This document shows, piece by piece, positions 13,030-16,795 of a stretch of DNA of 62,231 nt. Location: the NCBI GenBank assembly GCA_020832285.1, contig JAFIFB010000058.1:1-62231 (forward strand), given 5' to 3'. The notes under the pieces are model-generated. The model made no database searches, was not told the DNA's origin, and saw only the letters and a program-made list of their open reading frames with translations. The stretch comes from Balneolaceae bacterium (lineage in GTDB: Bacteria > Bacteroidota > Rhodothermia > Balneolales > Balneolaceae). Every line of letters begins with the position of its first letter. Position 1 is the stretch's first letter. A program made the translations under genes and the position numbers.

Positions 13030-13965
13030 TTACACAAACTCATCCAGATCTTTCTTTTTATTTGCACCCTTTAGTATGTCATGAGCCTCTTCGTGGGCTT
13101 CATGCGGCTCAAGGTGCAGTGTGATAATCGCATCGGTTCTGAGGGCGTCTATCAGTTTTCGTTCGAGCAGAGTTGCTTCGTCGTGTGCATTTTTCAGGGA
13201 GATGTCATCATCAAAAACCAGGTGCAGTTCCACCCAGGTGGTTTTGCCCGATGTGCGATGTCTCAGGTGATGCCAGCCTTTGATTGTTTTGCCCTTCTCT
13301 TTATTTAGGACATTTTTCAGAGCCCGGTCGATATCGGGATTTCGGGTATCCATCAAACCGCGAATAGAGAATCGCAGCAGTTTGTAAGCTTCATAGGTGA
13401 TATAGCCGGCAATCATAAAACTTACGACAACATCTATAAACAGCCACCCGGTAAAATGGATCAGCAGCAATGCAACCACCACTCCGCCGCTTGTCCACAC
13501 ATCAGTAAGCGTGTGTTTTCCATTGCTGATGGCAATCATGTTATTGTGTTTTCTGCCAACGTGAATCACGTATCTTCCGAGAAAAAAGTTGATAAGTGCG
13601 GCAATAACAAGCATAACAATACCGGCATCCATATTGGTAATATCGATCCCGGTAATTGCACTCATCACCGCATGGTAAATAATGGTGATACCAGCCACAA
13701 TGATAATAGCCCCTTCAGCACCTACCGATAAAAATTCTACGCGTTCATGGCCGTAGTGATGATCGTCATCAGCCGGTTTTTGGCTTAGGTAATAGCCGTA
13801 TACCACGAACATAACAGCAAATAGGTGAACGACTGATTCGGCTGCATCCGAGAGGGCTGCTGTAGAGTTGGTCACGGCAAACGCACCGATCTTAATCGAG
13901 AGACTGACTGCAGAAACGATCAGGCTGATGATTAGTGCTTTTTTTATGGGATCTCTGCCACTCAT
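13030..13965 (-). CDS. Cation diffusion facilitator (CDF) family metal transporter
   Basis: A 311-residue inner-membrane exporter of divalent cations (Zn, Fe, Cd, Mn or Co) by proton exchange. Six membrane helices lie in about residues 8-200. The metal-site motifs are SDAAESVVH in the second helix and HTLTDVWTS in the fifth. A histidine-bearing loop, DDDHHYGHERVEFL, lies after helix 2. The C-terminal cytoplasmic domain (about 205-295) contains GWHHLRHRTSGKTTWVELHLVFD, typical of the dimerisation domain. The metal cannot be assigned with confidence from sequence. Confidence 0.93.
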   Translation of the reverse strand: MSGRDPIKKALIISLIVSAVSLSIKIGAFAVTNSTAALSDAAESVVHLFAVMFVVYGYYLSQKPADDDHHYGHERVEFLSVGAEGAIIIVAGITIIYHAVMSAITGIDITNMDAGIVMLVIAALINFFLGRYVIHVGRKHNNMIAISNGKHTLTDVWTSGGVVVALLLIHFTGWLFIDVVVSFMIAGYITYEAYKLLRFSIRGLMDTRNPDIDRALKNVLNKEKGKTIKGWHHLRHRTSGKTTWVELHLVFDDDISLKNAHDEATLLERKLIDALRTDAIITLHLEPHEAHEEAHDILKGANKKKDLDEFV

Positions 13966-14544: not shown

Positions 14545-15249
14545 ATGCTAACGAAAAATTACAATCCTGCCAAACTGCTCAAAGCAGTAGTTATTCTCGT
14601 TATTTTTATTCTGGCCATTTTTCATCAGAATGCAGATGCACAACAGATGTTTGTGGATGATGCGGAAGTAACCACATGCCGATCTTTTCAAATAGAGAGC
14701 TGGTACGGTTCGCGTGAATCTTGGCTTTTAACTGCCATCAGCCCAGTTCGCGGATTGGAACTGGGTACAGGCCTTGGATTCGATTCAAGGGATGGATTTG
14801 ACCCCGCTAACTGGATTCTGGAAGCCAAATTTGTACCTGGTGATCTGGAAGCAAACGGCTGGGCTATTGGCGGTGTTGCCGGCCTGCTCTATGATCTGGA
14901 TGGTGATATTGAAGAGGTATTTGCCTACATCCCATACAGCCAGATGATCTTCAATGACAGTTCTGTTTTACACATAAATGCGGGTATTGAAGGTGTGCAA
15001 GAGGAAGAGTGGGAATATGAACTTATAACCGGAATTCGAGGAGACTTTGGTTTAACCGACCGGTTTGCCATTCTCACAGAAGTTGCAGCGGCAAATTTCA
15101 GCGACGCTTTCTATCAAGGCGGAATAAGAATCTCACTGGTTCCAGATCTTCTGGAGATGGACATCACTTACGGCGAAGGCTTCAGGCGACAAGAAACAGC
15201 GCCCGGTTTTAATATCGGTATCGCCTTCACACCAGACCGGCTCTGGTAA
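14545..15249 (+). CDS. Hypothetical exported protein, probable small outer-membrane barrel
   Basis: 234 residues. The N-terminus LLKAVVILVIFILAIFHQNADAQ is a signal peptide. The mature part starts with MFVDDAEVTTCRSFQIESWYGSRESWLL in two blocks, then alternates short amphipathic strands (LELGTGLGF, EAKFVPGDL, GGIRISLVPDLLEMDITYGEGF). It ends NIGIAFTPDRLW with a terminal aromatic residue, as in outer-membrane barrels. The family is unrecognised. It lies 27 nt upstream of the mgtE leader ORF, so part of mgtE transcription may come from its promoter. Confidence 0.7.
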   Translation: MLTKNYNPAKLLKAVVILVIFILAIFHQNADAQQMFVDDAEVTTCRSFQIESWYGSRESWLLTAISPVRGLELGTGLGFDSRDGFDPANWILEAKFVPGDLEANGWAIGGVAGLLYDLDGDIEEVFAYIPYSQMIFNDSSVLHINAGIEGVQEEEWEYELITGIRGDFGLTDRFAILTEVAAANFSDAFYQGGIRISLVPDLLEMDITYGEGFRRQETAPGFNIGIAFTPDRLW

Positions 15250-15275: not shown

Positions 15276-15335
15276 ATGGAAGACCCTCCGGATTGTTGTA
15301 ACAAAATAAAAAATATAAACGAAACTCCGGCATGA
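15276..15335 (+). CDS. mgtE leader peptide, 19 aa, acidic/proline N-terminus
   Basis: A short ORF lies in the 154 bp leader of mgtE: ATG 15276-15278, stop TGA 15333-15335, product MEDPPDCCNKIKNINETPA. The run of acidic residues and prolines directly after the start recalls MgtL, the leader peptide of enterobacterial mgtA. There, nascent Glu/Asp-Pro sequences destabilise the translating ribosome when Mg2+ is low. The stop codon falls inside the 5' arm of a strong hairpin (15329-15384), the geometry expected of translation-coupled attenuation. No strong Shine-Dalgarno is seen, as is common in this lineage. That it is translated is an inference. Confidence 0.5.
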   Translation: MEDPPDCCNKIKNINETPA

Positions 15336-15400
15336 GATTGATCCGGCCCGTGATGTAATGCGGTGTCTTGATCTGTCTCATGCCCCAAAATTGAGACAGA
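15329..15400 (+). promoter_or_regulatory. Mutually exclusive hairpins upstream of mgtE (putative Mg2+-responsive attenuator)
   Basis: Hairpin 1: GGCATGAGATTGATC (15329-15343) pairs with GATCTGTCTCATGCC (15370-15384), 14 of 15 positions pairing including one G-T wobble and one T-T mismatch. Hairpin 2: TCTGTCTCA (15372-15380) pairs perfectly with TGAGACAGA (15392-15400), ending 3 nt before the mgtE ATG. They share 15372-15380 and cannot coexist. The leader-ORF stop codon lies in the 5' arm of hairpin 1. No T-run follows either, so control of translation initiation rather than termination is suggested. It does not resemble the M-box riboswitch. Confidence 0.55.
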
Positions 15401-15403
15401 ATC

Positions 15404-16795
15404 ATGACTAACATAGATTTCACACCCATCTTTCATGCCCTTGAAACCGGCGATAAAGAGGAGCTCACTTCTCTCGTTTCCGAATTGAATCCATCAACCA
15501 TATCCGACCTGATTTCACAGTTAAGCGATGAGCAGCAACTCCGTGTATTCCTGGTTCTTGATATGGAAGACAAAGTTGATGTAATGGCCTATCTGGAATT
15601 CGACATCCAGCTCTCCATTCTTCAGGCTTTGACAGTGGAGATGAGTAAATCGCTGATCGAAAAAATGCCCCACGATACGAGGGTAGACCTTTTAAACCGG
15701 TTGCCATCCGACAAACGAAACGGTATTATGCGACACCTGGCCAAAGTGGAACGTGATGATATCCTGAAACTGTCAGAATTTGAGGAAGGCACTACCGGGT
15801 CTATAATGACCTCCGACTATGCCATTCTGCATCCCAATCAAACAGCACAGCAAGCCATAGAGAAGCTCCGGGTTGAAGCTCCCGACCACGAGATGATTTA
15901 CTACGCTTATGTAGTTGACAAAGATAGAAAGCTGATCGGAACAGTATCAATGCGGGCGCTGATTGTGTCTGAGCCAGACGCCAAAGTGAGCGAACTCCTG
16001 ACATCCGATGTGGAAAAAGTGAATGTAAACGATCCGGAAGAACAGGCCTCAAGAAAACTGAAACGGCTCGACCTGCTCGCCCTTCCCGTAGTGGATGACG
16101 AAGAAAAACTCGTGGGAATGATTACATTCGACGACGCAATGCAGGCCATAGAGGAGGATGTGTCTGACACCATGTACCAAAAAGCGGGTGTAATGACAGG
16201 TACAAGCACCCGGGAAAAAGCACGTGATGTTCTTTTCAGCAGAAAGCTGACACAGGGGAATATCCTCTATCCTGTTAGACTTCGTATTACATTCCTGTTT
16301 ATAACTCTTATCGGTGGTTTTCTGGTCGGTGGTGTTATCGACAGGTTTGAAGAACTGCTATCTGCAATCATTGTGGCTGCAGTATTTATTCCTGTTATAA
16401 TGGATATGGGTGGAAATGTAGGTACTCAGTCAACTACCATATTTGCCCGCGGGCTGGCACTCGGTCACATTAAACTGGAAAAAATATGGAAACATATAGG
16501 CCGAGAAATGGCTATAGGTGCTCTCATCGGAATAATTCTTGGCCTGCTGGCCGGTACCGGCGCCTATTTCTGGCAGGGTGCACCAAATGATCTGCCACTG
16601 ATTGGTTTGGCTGTGGGTCTGTCGCTGATTATTGTATTGCCCCTGGCTTCGTTTCTGGGTTTTTTCATTCCATATCTTCTTTTAAAAATGGGATGGGATC
16701 ACGCTCCGGGTGCCGATCCTTTCATCACTACCATAAAGGATTTTGTAGGGCTGACTCTCTATTTTACCCTGGTGAGTGTGTTTATTGGTGTTTGA
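15404..16795 (+). CDS. mgtE: Magnesium transporter MgtE
   Basis: A 463-residue Mg2+-selective channel of the inner membrane. It has the superhelical N domain (about 1-130, with repeated LLNRLPSDKRNGIMRHL-type segments), a tandem CBS domain (about 135-255, TTGSIMTSDYAILHPNQTA and LLALPVVDDEEKLVGMI) and a C-terminal five-helix pore domain (about 285-463). The pore helices include the conserved PVIMDMGGNVGTQSTTI segment. In known MgtE the N and CBS domains close the pore when cytoplasmic Mg2+ is high. Order and length are typical. A putative leader-peptide attenuator precedes it and a strong terminator follows. Confidence 0.95.
   Translation: MTNIDFTPIFHALETGDKEELTSLVSELNPSTISDLISQLSDEQQLRVFLVLDMEDKVDVMAYLEFDIQLSILQALTVEMSKSLIEKMPHDTRVDLLNRLPSDKRNGIMRHLAKVERDDILKLSEFEEGTTGSIMTSDYAILHPNQTAQQAIEKLRVEAPDHEMIYYAYVVDKDRKLIGTVSMRALIVSEPDAKVSELLTSDVEKVNVNDPEEQASRKLKRLDLLALPVVDDEEKLVGMITFDDAMQAIEEDVSDTMYQKAGVMTGTSTREKARDVLFSRKLTQGNILYPVRLRITFLFITLIGGFLVGGVIDRFEELLSAIIVAAVFIPVIMDMGGNVGTQSTTIFARGLALGHIKLEKIWKHIGREMAIGALIGIILGLLAGTGAYFWQGAPNDLPLIGLAVGLSLIIVLPLASFLGFFIPYLLLKMGWDHAPGADPFITTIKDFVGLTLYFTLVSVFIGV

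Follow-up and report, generated by a model that had tools for sequence, protein, structure and literature searches.

Mg2+ sensing by ribosome destabilization, a subject of which Chadani 2017 is said to be the founding paper, has been described for enterobacterial genes in the literature covered here, in which the papers cited by accession number, here and below, are represented by excerpts. According to these excerpts, the destabilization of ribosomes by acidic residues is suppressed by high Mg2+, and aspartate and glutamate are avoided at the N-termini of the yeast proteome (PMC9718836). Translation of MgtL aborts on the motif EPDP at low Mg2+ (PMC11282234), mgtQ is translated less because of its acidic codons, which raise mgtB via alternative stems at the mgtB start (PMC8092293), and translation of the corL upstream ORF (uORF) is inverse to corA expression (PMC11552253). 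Literature searches whose coverage mostly excludes subscription journals and preprints found no paper joining mgtL and mgtE and none joining upstream open reading frames, the M-box and mgtE, and a search on intrinsic ribosome destabilization gave no title about mgtE leaders. The excerpted text of PMC12810186, which deals with mycobacterial mgtE-type elements, the Mbox and a conserved uORF, does not mention an acidic leader.

In the window, that is, the whole stretch of 62,231 nucleotides analyzed here from a Balneolaceae bacterium with a genome of 5.3 Mb, a short ORF with early acidic and proline residues lies, as in systems of the MgtL type, upstream of a Mg2+ transporter gene. We consider it quite probable that this leader is a translational attenuator upstream of mgtE in which the ribosome serves as the Mg2+ sensor. 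Its downstream gene encodes MgtE (PF01769) and not the P-type ATPase MgtA, and the locus is therefore not a case of MgtL proper. The features are listed in Table 1.

Table 1. Features of the mgtE leader and of the adjacent genes in the window
Feature	Position	Strand	Basis or remark
Gene for a 234-aa predicted outer-membrane beta-barrel protein, directly upstream	14545..15249	+	Predicted structure; possibly co-transcribed with mgtE
Leader ORF, 19 codons, MEDPPDCCNKIKNINETPA	15276..15335	+	ATG at 15276, TGA stop at 15333-15335; start position and first residues kept in relatives
Codons 2-6, Glu-Asp-Pro-Pro-Asp, proposed ribosome-destabilizing stretch	15279..15293	+	Acidic/Pro identity kept in relatives with D/E exchanges; position matches EPDP of E. 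coli MgtL
Hairpin 1, 5' arm, holding the leader stop codon	15329..15343	+	Fold prediction
Small hairpin within the loop of hairpin 1	15345..15367	+	Predicted fold
Hairpin 1, 3' arm (proposed ON form)	15370..15384	+	Fold prediction
Hairpin 2, 5' arm, overlapping the 3' arm of hairpin 1	15372..15380	+	Pairing
Hairpin 2, 3' arm (proposed OFF form)	15392..15400	+	Ends 3 bases 5' of the mgtE ATG at 15404
mgtE, Mg2+ transporter, 463 aa	15404..16795	+	PF01769, PF03448, CBS; TIGR00400 above cut-off

Near mgtE, the ORF at 13030-13965 on the minus strand presumably encodes a cation diffusion facilitator (efflux). The 234-aa protein gave no Pfam or NCBIfam match; it is conserved, and in about 20 genomes (counted by hand: Balneolota, one Bacteroidales and one Gemmatimonadetes) its gene lies in one locus of a few kb with mgtE. 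Its AlphaFold2 model (mean pLDDT 83) shows 13 strands behind a leading helix and most resembles small porins, among them KdgM and NanC (TM by query 0.5-0.6). The protein may give Mg2+ a path through the outer membrane in partnership with MgtE.

Hairpin 1 pairs in 14 of its 15 positions and hairpin 2 in all nine, and because the 3' arm of the one overlaps the 5' arm of the other, the two are mutually exclusive. An earlier note, made from the sequence alone, had proposed the 19-codon MEDPPD ORF ending inside the 5' arm of a near-perfect 15-position hairpin, and a perfect 9-bp hairpin with an overlapping arm beside the mgtE ATG; all of these are present as it placed them. In a search for such stem pairs, none of 60 dinucleotide shuffles equaled the score of the window's exclusive pair. 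The free RNA of positions 15320-15420 is predicted to adopt the fold of hairpin 1 (-32.8 kcal/mol, z = -4.1), and when the RNA is removed up to 12 nt past the leader stop, which mimics a ribosome at the stop codon, the remainder is predicted to fold as hairpin 2. By prediction and conservation, the end of the ORF could switch between exclusive forms of the RNA, as in the MgtL type, and an alternative stem is predicted at the start of the downstream gene, as in the MgtQ type. A covariance-model scan recognized no Rfam family, including the M-box (RF00380), at gathering score in the window, and an M-box or other Rfam element was rejected as the window's regulator on this ground. A scan limited to intrinsic terminators found none in the leader.

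Eight leaders of one MgtE subfamily (the window, L039, L036, L032, L035, L033, L098 and L034) were aligned, the MgtE proteins of the seven relatives being 62-91% identical to that of the window. In all eight the leader ORF starts at -123 to -129 nt from mgtE, and in seven it is initiated by ATG, begins with M-[DE]-[DE]-P-[PH]-[SD] and reaches into hairpin 1. The peptide starts with MEDPPD in the window and L039, with MDEPPS in L036, L035, L033 and L098, and with MEEPHS in L032; L034 has [M]EEPPD, with ATA replacing ATG. The peptide tail changes freely, its stop varying from -42 to -68, and the peptides of the window and L039 are identical over nine residues before an insertion shifts the frame. 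In all seven leaders that have hairpin 1, the ORF ends past the beginning of this hairpin. Both hairpins exist in seven of the eight with diverged arm sequences, for example TCTGTCTCA/TGAGACAGA in the window versus GTTCTGTCA/TGACAGAAC in L033. Across seven relatives, two-sided changes affect eight of the nine core pairs of hairpin 1 and two of the 12 pairs of hairpin 2. Because MAFFT had misplaced the 3' arm of hairpin 2 in L033 and L098, the arms were placed in register by hand for this count, a procedure that favors the structure. Codons 2-6 are the conserved part, in which D/E exchanges and synonymous changes occur; the sequences of the stems vary freely.

The earlier note had proposed such an alignment as a check, and both things to be looked for were found: the short ORF with acidic and proline residues in codons 2-6 is kept in all eight leaders (once with ATA), and the exclusive pair is kept in seven, with changes on both sides of the pairs. 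Its proposed direction of control, in which finishing the leader turns mgtE off and aborting it turns mgtE on, agrees with where the ORF ends on hairpin 1 in those seven leaders. For the region from -90 to +20, the predicted best fold is hairpin 2, not hairpin 1, in L036, L032, L035 and L033. No Shine-Dalgarno sequence was found ahead of the leader ORF in the window's clade, and its initiation is therefore assumed. In L037 and L008, which belong to the same MgtE subfamily, an acidic leader ORF was not found. L034 (78% MgtE identity) keeps the peptide EEPPDC about 128 nt before mgtE, with the start ATA and both hairpins absent; it represents a decaying copy, the use of a rare start codon or an assembly error.

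From the work on MgtL, and also on MgtQ, in enterobacteria, we infer that the leader would be translated and that its translation would be aborted at low Mg2+, with the following direction of control. The ORF would present the ribosome with two to three acidic residues and prolines in codons 2-6. With ample Mg2+, the ribosome would complete the leader, stop in (or beyond) the 5' arm of hairpin 1 and hold this arm unpaired, hairpin 2 would then form, and the mgtE start would be closed. With scarce Mg2+, the ribosome would fall apart in the first codons and leave the 5' arm free, hairpin 1 would form and prevent hairpin 2, and mgtE would be translated.

The MgtE subfamily of the window is rare, being found in 9 of 394 genomes in a phylum-wide search (window MgtE as query, E 1e-70). 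When 54 dereplicated mgtE upstreams of the same phylum were scanned for an ATG-initiated ORF with at least two acidic residues in codons 2-5, 13 had such an ORF (100 shuffles: mean 2.69, maximum 8). All 13 precede two MgtE subfamilies (13/25, subfamilies being assigned by best tblastn query), against 0/29 before the others (Fisher p = 5e-6), and the leader-less genes of the other subfamilies sit in the same or related genomes. Two further mgtE genes in the window's own genome (L309 and L312) have no acidic leader ORF. Related leaders outside the rule are recognized in L007 (ADPDPEP inside the ORF), L119 (MPDSKEPGAS) and L120 (MHSQDEPGAR). A stricter pattern, modeled on leaders already known, gave two matches in the 394 genomes, one of which is a known mgtE leader (L346); the other looks like chance. 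On a FastTree tree of 267 MgtE proteins, 54 of them with a leader, at least 39 changes of the leader label are required, compared with a mean of 49.9 and a minimum of 46 in 100 label shuffles, and the distribution is patchy but clustered.

Similar leaders exist in other phyla. A first similarity set, for which the MgtE protein was the sole criterion, yielded MDPDPGSYRNNTALRRRL and MDADPDPYRQPTMLRRRR in Spirochaetaceae, MTDDPGPSRLS in a Phycisphaerales genome and MESDDFRRKK in Alkalithermobacter. In the Bacillota, 119 genomes were examined for PF01769 matches, and 89 of the 100 listed were taken, which gave 86 usable upstreams and 81 after dereplication. By a rule of a Shine-Dalgarno match of at least five bases plus at least two acidic residues in codons 2-5, a qualifying leader was found in 18 of these 81 (200 shuffles: mean 0.96, maximum 4); part of the loci had been inspected before the rule was set, and 11 of the 55 unseen until then qualify (200 shuffles: mean 0.63, maximum 4). 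Among the uORFs preceded by a Shine-Dalgarno sequence in the Bacillota set, 18/74 are acidic versus 15/234 gene starts, the latter taken from longer loci that represent several phyla. The same longer loci supplied 83 control upstreams of other genes, of which 4 qualified, and two of the four precede genes that read as MgtC-like. For the control match in L108, which was refetched as L353, the downstream gene is MgtC by Pfam (PF02308). The mgtE samples of Spirochaetota and Planctomycetota, which comprise the best-scoring 30 and 28 of larger lists, had leaders in 0/30 and 1/28, respectively. A mixed set had leaders in 24 of 76 cases, a figure unusable as a rate because some of its genomes were chosen for having leaders. 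A chance origin of the acidic leaders was rejected by the shuffles, the paralog controls and the control upstreams.

Two side observations concern these surveys. The leader MDSDPLPDLC is located ahead of the MgtC-family gene in Alkalispirochaeta alkalica (L108/L353). An M-box and an acidic leader ORF occur together in 7 of 20 leader-bearing Bacillota loci scanned (L150, L206, L291, L189, L283, L286 and L293), where they are possibly two tandem Mg2+ sensors in one mgtE leader.

A genome-wide search was made that ignored the neighboring gene, the pattern being a Shine-Dalgarno sequence followed by codons for M-[DE]-x-D-P, in 299 Bacillota genomes. It gave 25 matches versus 19 for a backward control pattern (counted by hand), so that the matches stand out by the genes behind them and not by their raw count. 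Eight of the 25 open ORFs of at least 100 codons, and 17 are short ORFs. Six of the 17 precede or overlap the starts of Mg2+ genes, an outcome (six or more) with a chance probability of about 8e-13 under the assumption that 0.2% of genes belong to such families. CorA (L326 and L331) and MgtE (L339, and L335 with overlap) are found here. L327 and L328, in which proteins with PRC-barrel, MgtE_N and CBS domains lack the MgtE membrane domain, carry leader and switch, and these proteins are probably tied to Mg2+. A seventh of the 17, in L338, precedes a gene for S-adenosylmethionine decarboxylase (see below). Behind the remaining 10 of the 17, neither a Mg2+ gene nor speD was seen: the followers are a weakly integrase-like protein (L325) and, by Pfam, thiamin pyrophosphokinase (L332) and bPH_5 (L345), those of L341, L333 and L344 have no Pfam match, L330 is a cysteine-rich ORF of 54 codons that looks like a small gene of its own, and L336, L337 and L340 were left out of the Pfam scan. 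A second search, around G442 in the same phylum, gave only matches already found. In 198 Spirochaetota genomes, the search gave 11 matches, six of them under 100 codons; of these short ORFs, one precedes MgtC (L353) and one overlaps a CorA start (L354), and L353 is not independent, because its genome was the center of that search. The earlier note had thus located the leader at mgtE correctly and understated its extent, since similar leaders precede other mgtE subfamilies, corA and mgtC in other phyla.

In L338 (1513-1641), a leader-like ORF, MEEDPLPL, lies ahead of a gene at 1738 for S-adenosylmethionine decarboxylase (polyamine synthesis). Polyamines can replace Mg2+ in Salmonella (excerpt of PMC12421838), and this gene may therefore be a further target of such leaders, or the match may be due to chance.

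Of 40 chosen leader loci, two that overlap the main gene were set aside and 38 were tested for exclusive stems. Stems matched by at most 2 of 60 shuffles exist in 15 of the 38, namely, in all six leaders of the genus (L002-L006 and L013, for which at most 1 of 60 shuffles does as well) and in 9 of the 32 outside it; outside the genus, the two-hairpin design is mostly not better than in shuffles. Seven pattern-found loci were tested in the same way, the leaders L335 and L354, which overlap the main gene, being left out. Four (L327, L328, L331 and L339) have exclusive stems matched by none of 100 shuffles, and no significant switch was found by this test in L326, L346 and L353. In L327, hairpin 1 has 16 pairs and, like that of the window, holds the leader stop in its 5' arm; the Shine-Dalgarno sequence is covered by hairpin 2. 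L326 has a hairpin over the corA Shine-Dalgarno sequence with hairpin 1 absent. In 17 of the 43 leaders outside the window's phylum, the ORF overlaps the mgtE start, and there the passing ribosome itself could block initiation, giving the same direction of control without a hairpin.

The shape of the peptide bears on the question of what the ribosome would respond to. In the 56 leaders found by rule, of which codons 2-5 belong to the rule and codons 6-9 do not, an acidic residue occurs at codon 4 in 66%, at codon 6 in 21%, and at codons 7-9 in 5%, 2% and 0%, respectively. Asp and Pro are encoded by several synonymous codons in the leaders, which speaks for selection on the peptide, and Asp at codons 2-4 favors GAC (47 versus 24). 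It has to be considered whether an EF-P-dependent pause at Pro-Pro, rather than drop-off at acidic residues, sets the RNA form, since Pro-Pro is present at codons 4-5 of the window and of six of its seven close relatives. We regard this as improbable: L032 has Pro-His, and other leaders have Pro-Gly, Ser-Ser or Asp-Pro-Gly while the acidic residues are retained; codon 2 is acidic in 75% (42/56) of the leaders as against at most 27% for Pro at any single codon of 2-6, a comparison that is partly circular because the leaders were chosen on acidic residues; and mgtQ, according to the excerpt of PMC8092293, needed its acidic codons and not its Pro codon. A riboswitch, in which the RNA itself would bind Mg2+ or another ion and the ORF would be incidental, has precedents in the M-box that precedes mgtE in the seven Bacillota loci above and in a candidate published for Thioalkalivibrio (excerpt of PMC11109978), but the lack of an Rfam match at gathering score in the window, and the conservation of codons 2-6, through D/E exchanges and synonymous changes, beside freely changing stems, make it very unlikely here.

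The leaders also show a striking codon preference. Of the 49 serines at codons 5-8, 38 are encoded by AGT, where 6.2 are expected from the serine usage of the same mgtE genes (maximum of 16 in 20,000 simulations), and at codon 6 AGT is used in 13 of 13; in ordinary genes, Ser at codons 5-8 is AGT in 8 of 89. The uORFs MDGNPCSRR, MESVPWRS and MDSGPSWQ, which have the AGT serine and one acidic residue, may be further members missed by the rule. An explanation of the bias by a hidden TAG in the -1 frame fails for many leaders, only 23 of the 38 AGT codons following a T; we can only guess that AGT is decoded slowly, through weak pairing, and so makes the unstable state last longer. The bias, together with Cys-Cys in the window, would suit an attenuator that senses charged tRNA (for Ser AGU, Cys or Pro) instead of Mg2+, yet 26 of the 56 leaders have no AGT in codons 5-9, the window's leader, which has no serine, among them, the Cys is lost in L033 and L098, and the identified genes behind the pattern-found short ORFs are mostly Mg2+ genes. 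In the window's clade, moreover, the downstream gene is a Mg2+ transporter gene and there is no conserved codon run besides the acidic/Pro start, and sensing of tRNA is accordingly given little credence. A small protein acting in trans on MgtE, after the manner of the regulatory proteins MgtR and MgtU of the Salmonella Mg2+ operon (excerpt of PMC8092293), is hardly credible and was rejected because only the first codons, corresponding to about six to nine residues, are kept, while the remainder varies in length, sequence and frame among close relatives.

Taken together with the attenuator that we favor for the window, the surveys incline us, with some reserve, to the view that acidic-start leader peptides sense Mg2+ in a wide range of bacteria, the ribosome itself being the sensing device. 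In the Bacteroidota/Balneolota, the Bacillota and the Spirochaetota, they would have been gained or lost many times before mgtE, corA, mgtC, genes with MgtE domains and perhaps speD; Planctomycetota (L051), Actinomycetota (L054) and Hydrogenedentota (L111) contribute one candidate locus each. At least two read-outs would exist: an anti-sequestering hairpin, or an out-of-frame overlap between the leader ORF and the start of the transporter gene. Directly behind the acidic stretch, an AGU serine codon would often act as a second element. If such sensing is general before unrelated Mg2+ transporters, the weak translation of acidic N-termini would be a physiological signal across bacteria. The leaders would then be natural variants that show which residues, codons and RNA forms set the threshold. 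In addition, mgtE genes that lack an M-box could be regulated in this way, and Mg2+ genes of uncultured lineages could be recognized computationally by this signature.

The situation in the window resembles and differs from that of each described system, as far as the excerpts of the cited papers go. It shares with MgtL (mgtA; E. coli and Salmonella; MgtL sequence from NC_000913) a short leader ORF with a Met-acidic-Pro start, two exclusive RNA forms (PMC11552253 for MgtL) and a control in which completed translation of the leader lowers, and abortion raises, the Mg2+ transporter (PMC11282234 for MgtL; deduced for the window). However, MgtL acts on Rho-dependent transcription termination, whereas the second hairpin of the window is placed where translation starts; the product of mgtA is a P-type ATPase and MgtE belongs to another family, and beyond the acidic/Pro start the leaders were not seen to be alike. 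With MgtQ (mgtB; Salmonella), the predicted arrangement in the window has in common translational control by an alternative stem that hides the start of a Mg2+ transporter gene, and a location between two genes; MgtQ needs its acidic codons (PMC8092293). However, the mgtQ peptide is eight residues long, and the mgtB start becomes free when a ribosome occupies stem 1 of mgtQ (PMC8092293), whereas in the window a ribosome on the first arm is predicted to close the start, so that the leader is not of the MgtQ type in this respect, and the transporter family and phylum also differ. CorL (corA; E. coli and Salmonella) likewise shows uORF translation inverse to corA and a response to Mg2+, but it is Rho-dependent and has few acidic or Pro residues (PMC11552253).

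Among the RNA elements, the M-box riboswitch (RF00380) gives Mg2+ control before mgtE in Bacillota, but it has no match in the window, and in the leader-bearing loci scanned it joins the acidic leader in 7 of 20. The uORF2 of the Mycobacterium tuberculosis Mbox is likewise short, conserved and part of a leader related to Mg2+, and one of its prolines is universally conserved; it sits behind the M-box, however, is itself the controlled ORF and is described as specific to mycobacteria, and an acidic-start mechanism is not mentioned for it in the excerpts (PMC12810186). The mgtE motif SRC-65-1 of Thioalkalivibrio, compared here by its description, is similarly a candidate structure before mgtE that includes the start codon, but was reported as a riboswitch candidate from one genus (PMC11109978). 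In short, the locus would represent the sensing logic of MgtL, combined with a different transporter, a different read-out and different phyla.
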